From contig JAHHHK010000031.1 of assembly GCA_019359395.1 (NCBI GenBank), positions 1 to 64,000 of the forward strand: a stretch of DNA of 64,000 nt, in the 5' to 3' direction. This document shows positions 59,783 through 64,000 of the stretch, piece by piece (the first letter of the stretch is position 1; each line of letters begins with the position of its first letter). Made by a program: the position numbers and the translations under genes. Source of the DNA: Komarekiella atlantica HA4396-MV6 (GTDB lineage: Bacteria > Cyanobacteriota > Cyanobacteriia > Cyanobacteriales > Nostocaceae). The notes under the pieces were generated by a model. It ran no database searches, was not told where the DNA came from, and worked only from the letters and a program-made list of their open reading frames with translations.

Positions 59783-60958
59783 TTATTGCTTTCCACTCAA
59801 TCGACCTGTTTGATAAAAATCACGCAGGTTAGGGAAAGCCTTTTCTAGCAGCCAGTTCCGCCCAATTTCTGATTCAGGAATATTTGAGGCAGCCATATAA
59901 TAACCACTCCTATAAGCAGCTACACCCAAACAAGCTTGTAGGCTGGATATGGCCCGCGAAGAAGCTGGAATAGCCATCAAATCTTGCAGATGACTGGGAT
60001 GATAATTTTGTCCTACCAGCAGAAAATAAACCAAAGTATGAACCAACCGGGATAAAACAACTGTTCGGTCTTGCCAACGTTCTAAATGAGACTTGATACA
60101 GAAGTAATCAGGTAAATCAGCCGCTTGAGATTCATCAATGAATAAATCGCTTTGGCTTTCGATAAAGCTGGAATCCAGACTTATAAACTGTTTAAGAAAA
60201 ACAAGTGTTTTCCCCCAACGTTCGTGTTCCTTAGTTTCAGGAGAGAACGCACCTTCTGAATACTGTGAACCATACTTTTCTTGAAGTTGTGCAACAGCCT
60301 CTTGATTGATATCACCTTGCCAGTCAGATTCAGCAAAAAACTCTTTTAAAATTTCTTGTAAATAGATGGGTGAAAACTTACTGATATCTGGTGCTTCATC
60401 ATCAAAATCGTCTTCATACGTATCAATAATAAATTTCTCTAACTCGATTTCTAGCTCTTGCTTTCTATTAACTGGTAGTAATGATTTAGCGTCTTCTAAC
60501 GATAGAGGAAAATTTAAATAAGGATGACCTTTGGCTAAGTAAGAATCACTCAAATCTGCCAAACTCTCTAGTGCGATAGTCCGGGCAAAATACTCATCTT
60601 GTGGATGAATGTAAACCCTGTCTAGTTCCTTATCCACTAGCATCATATTAATTGCCAGTAGGGCAAACCATGAGGCATCGTGCAAACAAGTCGGGAAATC
60701 AGCAATCAAATCTACTAACTTCAGTTCTAAGATTTCTTCCCAAACACCTATCCTAGTTCTATTAGAAACATCACAAAAATGCTCTACCTCTTCTCCAATA
60801 GATGTTTCTCCTAACCACGTAAGATTTTCTACCCGCAAAGGAGAGGAGTAGTCAGGAGTCAGCTGGTTTTGGCTGTCCTCATCGAACTGTATCCACATCA
60901 AAGCCAAAAGTATCAGCTTACAAATACTCACTCGCTTCAGGAGAAGATATTCAAGCAT
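59783..60958 (-). CDS. Conserved hypothetical protein, unknown function
   Basis: 391 residues, acidic (DTYEDDFDDEAPDISKF near 185), no signal peptide or convincing membrane helix apart from a hydrophobic start (ICKLILLALMWIQF). Starting at the internal Met near residue 21 is possible. Regions such as SRLVHTLVYFLLVGQNYHPS and LQACLGVAAYRSGYYMAASN are helical. I do not recognise a family. It is divergent from the SSB gene with a 222-bp gap, which shows no other feature. Confidence 0.75.
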   Translation of the reverse strand: MLEYLLLKRVSICKLILLALMWIQFDEDSQNQLTPDYSSPLRVENLTWLGETSIGEEVEHFCDVSNRTRIGVWEEILELKLVDLIADFPTCLHDASWFALLAINMMLVDKELDRVYIHPQDEYFARTIALESLADLSDSYLAKGHPYLNFPLSLEDAKSLLPVNRKQELEIELEKFIIDTYEDDFDDEAPDISKFSPIYLQEILKEFFAESDWQGDINQEAVAQLQEKYGSQYSEGAFSPETKEHERWGKTLVFLKQFISLDSSFIESQSDLFIDESQAADLPDYFCIKSHLERWQDRTVVLSRLVHTLVYFLLVGQNYHPSHLQDLMAIPASSRAISSLQACLGVAAYRSGYYMAASNIPESEIGRNWLLEKAFPNLRDFYQTGRLSGKQ

Positions 60959-61180: not shown

Positions 61181-61579
61181 ATGAATCCTCGCGTTATGAA
61201 CTATATCAACAAAGTCATGCTAGTTGGCAGATGCGGACAACAACCAGAACTGAAATATTTCGAGTCTGGTGCAGTTAAGGCTTCAATCTCTATTGCAGTC
61301 AGACCACCCTACCGTAGCGATCAAGCCCTTTGGTTTGATTTAGTCGCCTGGGGAAATCAAGCAGAAGTGATTGGAAATTATGTTCATAAAGGGACTCAGA
61401 TTGCAATTACTGGCGAGTTTGGATTCGACCGTTGGGCAGATAAAAATTCTGGTACTATGCGACAAAAACCCGTAATCACAATCAATGCAATCGAATTATT
61501 AGGTTCACCCCGTAAGGAAGAATCTATATCTACTTCCACACCAAACGAAACACAGGCTGTAGCTAACGCCAATTTCTAG
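61181..61579 (+). CDS. Single-stranded DNA-binding protein (OB fold), no acidic tail
   Basis: 132 residues (possible start at Met6, 61196). OB-fold SSB pattern: MNYINKVMLVGRCGQQPELK, ASISIAVRPPYRSDQALWFD, VAWGNQAEVIGNYVHKGTQI, AITGEFGFDRWADKNSG. The C-terminus ends ...TQAVANANF and lacks the acidic DDDIPF-type tip through which SSBs recruit partner proteins. The next gene carries such a tip. Probably part of a mobile-element or plasmid replication set. Confidence 0.9.
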   Translation: MNPRVMNYINKVMLVGRCGQQPELKYFESGAVKASISIAVRPPYRSDQALWFDLVAWGNQAEVIGNYVHKGTQIAITGEFGFDRWADKNSGTMRQKPVITINAIELLGSPRKEESISTSTPNETQAVANANF

Positions 61580-61652
61580 GAAATTACAAATCGCCTATGC
61601 AGTATCAATCGTAGGCGATAAACCATCTAATCAATTTACAAACCAAACAAAC

Positions 61653-62072
61653 ATGATTCATAATACTGCAACTGTTAATCTTAAGTCAGTCAACACAACT
61701 CACGACAAAGAAGGTTCCTTGATTGCCTTCGGGATTGCGGAATTCTATTACCGTTCCAAGGAGGGAGTAGTCGCTGACGAGATCCCATTTCGTTCCAAGG
61801 GCGCACCCGCTGTCGTTATCAACGAACAAGGCGAAGGCGTACACGGTACCGCAGAAGGATATCTCGATTTAATAGTAGATAATAGGGGTGAGTATAAAGA
61901 AAAGATTGCCACATTCGTAATCAGAAACTTTATCTCAGCACAGCCTATTAACGAACTCACTCAGGTTAGCAAAAACCCTAACTCGCTTGAAACTCCCGAT
62001 TTTGCCAAGGAACTACTCGAAGATAACGTTACCTCGACAGATGAAGATTTAGACGAAGAACCTCCGTTTTAG
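61653..62072 (+). CDS. SSB-like partner protein with acidic C-terminal tip
   Basis: 139 residues. The body (TVNLKSVNTTHDKEGSLIAF, GIAEFYYRSKEGVVADEIPF, YKEKIATFVIRNFISAQPI) has the alternating beta pattern of a small OB-fold-like domain but no standard SSB signature. The last residues STDEDLDEEPPF are a perfect SSB-type interaction tail. It lies 74 bp downstream of the tail-less SSB on the same strand. I infer that the two act together on single-stranded DNA, one binding and one recruiting. Confidence 0.75.
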   Translation: MIHNTATVNLKSVNTTHDKEGSLIAFGIAEFYYRSKEGVVADEIPFRSKGAPAVVINEQGEGVHGTAEGYLDLIVDNRGEYKEKIATFVIRNFISAQPINELTQVSKNPNSLETPDFAKELLEDNVTSTDEDLDEEPPF

Positions 62073-62347
62073 ACCTAATTAATTGAATAATGCTAGTACA
62101 TACAGGGTTAATTGTTAGTACTGGCATTATTTTTTACAGAAATCCAGAATAAAAATCCACTGTTTGGTAGAATCGCTGACATGAATTACAAAATCGCTTC
62201 ATTAACATATGTCATGTATGCAGACAATAAGGTTCTTAACTGGAAACTCCTAAAACCTTTATTCTATCGTTGCCAATATTTTCTAAAGTTCTTTACTGTC
62301 GAACAAATTTTGTGTTCCGCTTGCGCCCTACACAAACAATTGTGTTC

Positions 62348-62446
62348 TTAACTGTCACATAGTAACTCAGCTAATTTCGCTTCAGGATCTGTCTGCCTGT
62401 GCGTACTTATTCCCGTATTGCCTAAACCAATAAATCCAATTTTCAT
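62348..62446 (-). pseudogene. NAD(P)-binding dehydrogenase N-terminal stub
   Basis: 32 codons from ATG 62446: MKIGFIGLGNTGISTHRQTD, PEAKLAELLCDS, stop. The first 12 residues are the Rossmann start of 6-phosphogluconate/3-hydroxyisobutyrate dehydrogenases (GFIGLGNMG in relatives); the remainder does not match. The interval 62073-62347 holds no gene I can support. Confidence 0.5.
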
Positions 62447-62585
62447 TTCAACTACCTTTTTAGAATTGAATCTAAGTGCGATCGCAGTGCTTCAGTCCAA
62501 CGGCGTTAGGTCGCAAAAACTTTTAAGTGACAAACGAGATAATCTCGTTCGTATTGCTTTAATCCAAAGCGCAAGGTTCCTCTTG

Positions 62586-62614
62586 CCGTGGATAAGCAGC
62601 GTTCTTATCCACGG
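62586..62614 (-). terminator. Hairpin downstream of katG
   Basis: CCGTGGATAAG, a 7-base loop, then CTTATCCACGG: an 11-bp perfect stem 62 bp after the katG stop on its strand. No T-run follows, so it may be a non-canonical terminator or an RNA-stabilising structure. A smaller stem AACGAGA/TCTCGTT lies at 62535-62551. Confidence 0.45.
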
Positions 62615-62675
62615 TGAGTTCTTCAAAGCGCAGCGATACACCCGTGGAGTACGTTAGTGTTGAGCGCTCAAGACT

Positions 62676-64000
62676 TTAGCGGGTCTGTTCAGCGCCAACG
62701 TCGAAGCGATCAAGCATCATCACCTTGTTCCAGGCTGCGACGAAGTCCTTGACCATCCGCTCGTGACCGTCATCAGCGCCATAGACTTCAGCAATCTGAC
62801 GCAGTTCTGCGTTCGAGCCGAAGATGAGATCGCAGCGGGTTGCGGTGAACTTCGCTGCACCGGTTTCGCGATCGCAGATCTCAAAAAGCATCTCGCGATG
62901 GTCAGCAGGCTTCCACTCGTAGTCCATACTTGTCAGGACACGGAAAAAGTCATTGGTCAAGACACCCGGTCGGTCAGTGAAGCTACCGTGCTTTGAATAG
63001 TCCCAATTCTGATCGAGCGCGCGAAGTCCGCCGACCAGAACCGTCCATTCGGGTGCGGTTAGCGTGAGGAGCTGCGCTCGATCCAGGAAGATCCGCTCCG
63101 GCTTCACCTTATAGCCAACAGCCTCATTGTGATAATTTCTGAAACCGTCCGAAACTGGCTTCAGAAACTCAAAGCTTTCAACATCTGTCAGCTCCTGAGT
63201 CGTATCCATCCGCCCCGGAGTAAACGGGACGGCAACGGTAAGCCCAGCCTCTTGTGCAGCCTTCTCGACCGCAGCACAACCACCGAGGATGATCAGGTCT
63301 GCGATCGAGATTTTTTTGTTGCCCGACTGAGCGCCGTCAAACTCCGCCTGAATTCGCCCAAGAGTCGATAGCACCTCGCCGAGTTCCTGCGGGCGGTTCA
63401 TTTCCCAGTCCTTCTGGGGATTGAGGCGAACGCGCGCTCCATTTGCGCCGCCGCGCTTGTCGGAATGGCGGTGACTCGATGCCGCTGCCCAAGCGGCTGA
63501 CACGAGCGCCGAAACCGAGAGTCTACTCGCTAAAATCCGATCCTTGAGAGACTTGATATCGGCGGCATCAACGACATCATGATTAAGTGCCGGAATTGGA
63601 TCTTGCCAGATTAGATCTTCCTCTGGGATTTCCGGTCCAAGATAGCGCGTTTTCGGACCCATATCCCGATGGATCAGCTTATACCAGGCCCGCGCGAACG
63701 CATCGCTGAAGTAATCGAAGTCACCCAAGAAGCGCTGGCAAATCTCGTGATAGGTCGAATCGACCTTTAAGGCAATGTCCGAAGTCATCATCATTAACGG
63801 GTGCTCAACACCCAGCAGATGAGCGTCGGGTGTCTTCGGCGCATCAGGATTGCTCGGCTTCCACTGAATCGCACCTACTGGACTCTTTGTTTGTTCCCAG
63901 TCGTACTTAAAAAGATTGGTTAGGTAACTGTTGTCCCACTGGGTTGGGTTTGGAGTCCACGATCCTTCGATCCCGTTCGTCATCGTATATTCGGCAAACC
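62676..64000 (-). CDS. katG: Catalase-peroxidase, C-terminal part (runs off the window)
   Basis: About 440 codons visible; the frame is open to the right edge ([20 protein letters not shown]), so the N-terminal heme half with the distal Arg-Trp-His and proximal His is outside. Seen: TSDIALKVD, whose Asp partners the proximal His; [15 protein letters not shown]-type stretch (here [20 protein letters not shown]), [40 protein letters not shown], and the C-terminal domain [20 protein letters not shown] and [19 protein letters not shown]. Length fits a family of about 740. It breaks down hydrogen peroxide. GC-rich. Confidence 0.95.

Follow-up and report, generated by a model that had tools for sequence, protein, structure and literature searches.

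A tipless SSB and its tip-bearing neighbour as a candidate two-chain single-strand-binding protein of large cyanobacterial plasmids

Single-strand-binding protein (SSB) is among the most uniform of bacterial proteins, with one chain, four copies and several tails. In a 64,000-nucleotide stretch of a Komarekiella atlantica contig (the window), an SSB gene whose product ends without an acidic tip is followed by a small gene whose product carries one, raising the question of whether the two make up a single SSB. A preliminary description of this DNA had proposed such a split system, with a partner unrelated to SSB, perhaps on a plasmid or mobile element and in place of one normal SSB. The plasmid setting, the pairing and the restriction of the tip to the second gene were all recovered here; 'unrelated' probably does not stand. 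On balance, we favour the reading that the two genes, termed ssb-alpha and ssb-beta, encode an SSB of two chains that serves large cyanobacterial plasmids. The features concerned, in window positions, were as follows.

61181..61579, + strand: ssb-alpha, 132 aa, OB-fold SSB of the Alr7579 subfamily ending NANF (PF00436 and alr7579 primer matches)
61580..61652, + strand: spacer of 73 bases between ssb-alpha and the partner
61653..62072, + strand: partner (ssb-beta), 139 aa, with an OB-like domain at about residues 1-97, a polar linker and the tip DEEPPF
62040..62069, + strand: codons of the partner's acidic tip (DEDLDEEPPF), read directly from the sequence
59783..60958, - strand: hypothetical gene (391 aa) next to the pair in divergent orientation, Pfam match none
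62216..64000, continuing to about 64985 of the contig, - strand: segment with a peroxidase gene that we read as katG-type, outside the SSB system

The SSB and partner ORFs occupy two different frames of the same strand. Alpha matched the Pfam SSB family (PF00436) with 80.3 bits against a cut-off of 26 and ends in ANANF instead of the Pro-Phe tip of bacterial SSB. Its C-terminus, NETQAVANANF, has neither an acidic tip nor Pro-Phe, in agreement with the SSB lacking an acidic end that had been described at this place and on this strand. The second ATG (61196) is the start in most close relatives of alpha, giving 127 aa, and is probably the conserved start. At this position the window matched exactly the forward alr7579 primer in the available text on the Anabaena sp. 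PCC 7120 SSBs (Kirti et al. 2014, PMC3976300). The reverse primer from the same text fell at 61562-61579 with one mismatch in the window gene, and was exact in a second copy of the pair in this genome (contig C72) and in 30/218 loci, some of them overlapping. Based on these primer matches, alpha belongs to the Alr7579 subfamily, whose namesake is likewise tailless. The partner terminates in STDEDLDEEPPF, and its DEEPPF ending is the SSB-type tail that had been noted for the second gene. The spacer length of 73 bases is common to most close relatives, and no terminator-like site was found on the + strand of 61580..61652. Comparison of the two copies in the Komarekiella genome gave a dN/dS of ~0.06 for alpha and for beta; both genes are under similar purifying selection.

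The tip of the partner is not a chance ending, since 36/44 distinct partner ORFs end in PF. With 0/42 distinct paired alpha doing so, the suggested division, in which the tip sits on the second gene only, extended well beyond the window. Five of the eight partner ORFs without PF are interrupted, truncated or run off the contig (L011, L013, L046, L055, L165), and the other three have a closed frame with another ending (L015, L056, L120). The tipless state is not special to paired alpha. Among 52 unpaired alpha-type SSBs, a set in which one entry is the 5' portion of the disrupted Nostoc azollae gene and from which three short ORFs were dropped, 7 end in PF and 45 are without Pro-Phe. The last six residues hold 1 to 3 acidic residues in 50/52 of the unpaired proteins; none are acidic in 30/42 paired alpha. 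A Mann-Whitney comparison of these groups takes no account of relatedness, and many paired sequences are close relatives. The idea that alpha lost its own tip owing to the presence of one on beta was only partly borne out, as unpaired alpha are also mostly without Pro-Phe, though more acidic. An Acaryochloris plasmid SSB with no partner beside it (L121) has its own tip, NDDIPF.

Conservation of the pair was examined in plasmids and genomes. An ssb gene was located upstream of the partner, on the same strand, in 18/18 PLSDB plasmid records with a partner; both searches agreed for 17 of these, and the eighteenth ssb was seen in the annotated region. An IS5 transposase splits the two genes in 1/18 records, and the ssb is broken in 1/18. 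In GTDB species genomes, ssb was beside the partner on 28/30 contigs, with the remaining two cut by the contig end. In 291 genomes of the order, a search with a wider partner profile yielded 20 matches with E-values of 1e-6 or below, namely 19 partners of at least 58 bits and one match at 31 bits, which was taken to be an SSB of the All4779 type (see below). An ssb was upstream of 18 of these 19 partners, once as an 82-residue fragment. The exception (G165:C458, L169) had no ssb nearby, left the first eight profile positions unmatched and appears to be 5'-truncated. Across 170 loci, 42/44 distinct partner ORFs were accompanied by ssb (the exceptions being one contig-edge cut and L169), although many paired sequences are near-identical Nostoc-group copies and independent cases are far fewer than these counts. 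The conserved pairing that the preliminary description had named as a check was thus observed in plasmid records and distinct partner ORFs alike. A second gene often found alone, which that description had named as counter-evidence, was encountered in 1/44 cases, in the seemingly 5'-truncated locus, with the contig-edge case set aside.

The pairing was found in more than one order of cyanobacteria, including a very diverged form on three Gloeothece plasmids. Distances between alpha OB domains and between beta OB domains were correlated across 17 diverse pairs (Mantel r 0.86, reached in 0/5000 permutations), a co-inheritance that is unsurprising from adjacency alone. Beta was more diverged than alpha in 136/136 comparisons among these pairs. 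At the two loci with a broken ssb, L055 and L011, the partner is broken as well.

We further investigated what kind of protein the partner is. Searches of Pfam, NCBIfam and PHROGs with the window partner and 17 relatives gave nothing better than E 0.036, the weak matches being to scattered single families, and Pfam SSB matched none of the 18 partner-family members. The partner profile A1 omits L007, L011, L013, L015 and L055, which lack a start, are short or are broken, as well as near-identical copies. When the 18-member partner profile was run over 388 cyanobacterial genomes, matches were found in 74. Two of the 30 loci taken from this search are partners (L005, L060). The remaining 28 (L061-L088), the best 28 of 73 weak matches spread over 72 genomes, all read as SSBs with their own tips that resemble All4779, the tailed main SSB of Anabaena, and 2/2 tested among them passed Pfam SSB.

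With the tail removed, the partner matched the All4779-type OB profile in hhalign with 95.2% probability over 94 columns (200 column shuffles, at most 6.7%; reversed profile, 0.5%), with targets that had come from the partner profile itself. A repeat against 30 All4779-type proteins found independently, from the Komarekiella genome's own copy, gave 70.1% over 80 columns (200 shuffles, at most 3.3%). A wider partner set of 21 members gave 94.5% with the profile-found targets and 39.7% with the independent ones. The All4779-type and alpha profiles matched each other at 97.5%. Direct homology between partner and alpha was below detection (0.1-0.3%). On these alignments, a divergent OB protein of the All4779 type is the most likely assignment for the partner (~16% identity), supported rather than settled. 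The earlier wording that the partner is unrelated to SSB is probably wrong, given that its tail-less profile aligns with the All4779-type OB domain.

AlphaFold models of the partner placed five strands in order with poor confidence (pLDDT 44 and 53), probably owing to shallow alignments. Foldseek searches with these poor models returned no match at E 0.001 or better. Several SsbA chains were present in the first 50 rows, but no SSB row reached an E-value below 0.18, and phage tail, NTF2 and ion-channel proteins were their neighbours in the list. A sequence search of solved structures gave two rows (E 0.25 and 1), both unrelated, and scans of viral contigs found no relatives. Tryptophan was absent from 13/17 partner OB domains; every alpha of the 17 pairs has three or more.

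The pair is not the only source of SSB in this genome. The Komarekiella assembly (7.8 Mb, 80 contigs) holds four SSB-family genes: an Alr0088-type SSB on C52 ending MSSEHF, an All4779-type SSB on C5 ending DDIPF (Pfam SSB, 59.3 bits), and alpha, which occurs with its partner twice, on C27 (the contig of the window) and on C72. The type labels are our own, assigned by similarity to the proteins in PMC3976300. As Alr0088-type and All4779-type SSBs are encoded in the same genome, replacement of a normal SSB by the pair, as earlier suggested, is not established. The SSB family was detected in 116/116 cyanobacterial genomes searched, with at least two copies in 115, and the All4779-type in 95/96. 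A D-rich PF tip is present in 29/30 All4779-type ORFs. The partner profile, which detects the All4779-type, found no All4779-type gene beside a canonical SSB in 30 loci, so the ordinary genes for alpha and beta mostly lie apart. The plasmid pair resembles, in linked form, a division seen among these mostly unlinked cyanobacterial SSBs.

A further linked case was seen in family f46, where 5/5 genomes gave two matches of the All4779 type, one lying next to an SSB gene. At all five of these loci (L211-L215), the alpha ends ESF, SFS or SAE, and the gene that comes next is of the All4779 type and ends DDIPF; in the three f46 genomes examined for it, the other alpha ends EDF. In a FastTree phylogeny of 104 alpha OB domains (midpoint root), the f46 paired genes grouped with f46 single genes. 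The plasmid paired genes stood apart from single genes, except for those of the Gloeothece pair (L119/L120), which fell near single genes together with a tailed Acaryochloris gene. The f46 loci look chromosomal, and their pairs apparently represent a separate second pair.

In the two-chain protein that we favour, alpha, with its canonical OB domain, would coat ssDNA while being unable to recruit enzymes. Beta, in which a strongly divergent OB domain of the All4779 type is joined by a polar linker to a Pro-Phe tip, would bring host replication, restart and repair enzymes to the alpha-coated DNA. The simplest form would be a mixed OB oligomer with tips on the beta chains only. We infer co-expression of the two genes, contact between alpha and beta, ssDNA binding by beta and the enzyme targets of the tip. 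The linkage counts, the Mantel correlation, the distribution of tips, the unpaired plasmid SSB with a tip of its own (L121), the f46 pair, the homology of beta and the weak behaviour of Alr7579 alone argue for this reading. Against it stand the 30 unlinked loci, the good ssDNA binding by All4779 alone, the failure of beta in Pfam, the undetectable direct homology of beta to alpha, the 39.7% hhalign value and the poor structural models. The more general proposal, of a hetero-oligomeric bacterial SSB in which a tipless coating chain and an obligate tip-bearing OB chain form a unit on cyanobacterial plasmids and in the f46 loci, is put forward tentatively, as the less probable form of the idea.

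The biochemistry of Alr7579 is pertinent here. In the available text of PMC3976300, the purified protein, studied alone, formed monomers and dimers and no tetramer even with ssDNA, was quenched by less than 20% with poly(dT), and shifted a 75-mer at high concentration only; M13 ssDNA quenched it by 60-70%. The adjacent gene was not considered in that text, in which 'alr7580' and 'heterodimer' occur 0 times, and no paper was found in the literature under alr7580 (an assumed name). A partner is presumed to lie beside alr7579 in Anabaena sp. PCC 7120. A two-chain SSB would explain the poor behaviour of purified Alr7579.

These data also bear on the rather unlikely case of two independent SSBs that travel together, each working alone with no mixed complex. 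Purified Alr7579 is a poor ssDNA binder (PMC3976300, available text), and beta, which is without tryptophan in 13/17 domains and the more diverged chain in every comparison, would be unlike a free-standing SSB. All4779 alone, however, is a good binder, about as good as E. coli SSB in the same text, and proteins of the beta type could therefore do without alpha. Independence is also compatible with the presence of both SSB kinds in nearly all cyanobacterial genomes searched (116/116 and 95/96) and with the 0 All4779-type neighbours of canonical SSB in 30 loci. The absence of tryptophan would also suit a beta that acts as an adaptor or decoy, its tip competing for or sequestering host SSB-binding enzymes at plasmid entry or replication, with ssb adjoining for ordinary reasons. 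F-type plasmids carry proteins that dampen the SOS response, and a ParA-type gene neighbours the pair in 9/9 annotated Nostocales and Chroococcidiopsis plasmid regions. We nevertheless regard this role as improbable, in light of the tight pairing with one SSB type across deep divergence and of partners that are broken where ssb is broken (L055, L011).

That alpha serves competence or conjugation in the manner of Bacillus subtilis SsbB, with beta as an unconnected conserved neighbour, seems very improbable. Beta comes after alpha in 42/44 distinct cases and in more than one order, and it bears the one feature that alpha is without. Nonetheless, 14/18 plasmid records are typed conjugative, and a comparison of Alr7579 with SsbB is proposed in the available text of Kirti et al. 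(PMC3976300).

The favoured two-chain SSB has parallels in known systems. The ssbA and ssbB genes of B. subtilis are unlinked. As here, one cell makes an SSB with a tail and another without; in B. subtilis the latter serves competence (as cited in the available text of PMC3976300). The SSB of Deinococcus/Thermus has two OB folds per chain and one tail, the OB:tail ratio of the proposed pair, in a single polypeptide (as cited in the same text) rather than from two genes. SSBs of the All4779 type resemble beta in an OB domain that aligns in register over nearly its full length, a polar linker and an acidic Pro-Phe tip, whereas they differ in passing Pfam SSB, which beta fails, and in lying beside alpha in f46 only among the loci examined. 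In a search for an earlier description of such a pair, the directly relevant items among the matches listed were PMC3976300 and PMC5101192 only; the available text of the latter counts ssb copies and does not mention the partner. A system that divides coating and recruitment between two chains would reveal the number of tails required and their function, and could be adjusted simply through the ratio of the two genes. A 'hypothetical protein' found on many large cyanobacterial plasmids would also gain a name. If the unlinked Alr0088-type and All4779-type proteins also mix, the cyanobacterial SSB would quite generally be an assembly of two proteins.

The suspected plasmid setting is supported by homologues in the 18 PLSDB records and by parA and parB downstream on this contig. 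In the nine annotated Nostocales and Chroococcidiopsis plasmid regions, the gene 3' of the partner, once after a small ORF, was annotated as ParA (6), 'cobyrinic acid a,c-diamide synthase' (2) or 'AAA family ATPase' (1), and we read all nine as ParA-type. A ParB-annotated gene comes next in 8/9, and no ParA-type gene was found 3' of the partner in the three Gloeothece regions (0/3). On the contig of the window, parA (65564-66340) and parB (66337-67338) are separated from the partner by the peroxidase gene (PF00141, 217.7 bits; katG in our reading). Loss of parA downstream of the pair was ruled out by its presence at 65564-66340 on the same contig. The window was collinear with plasmid C of Trichormus variabilis ATCC 29413 in 9 pieces covering 64% of a 24-kb query, up to ~62215. 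Because this similarity ends at ~62215 and a 96%-identical parA resumes at 65564, the peroxidase segment appears to have been inserted later into the plasmid module.

Several other neighbours were observed. On plasmid C of T. variabilis, parA and parB flank an IscB-annotated gene (L057 11561-12844), and the divergent 391-aa gene (59783-60958) recurs on this plasmid and at the C72 copy. Four plasmids (L050, L051, L052, L059) have a clamp-loader delta or delta-prime gene upstream of the pair, and the C72 copy has a delta-prime gene in that place (L180 173-706), which would fit a plasmid that brings along some replisome components of its own. Another gene beside the C72 pair (L180 5024-5992) matches the actin-like protein N-terminal domain (PF17989) and possibly encodes a plasmid-segregation actin.
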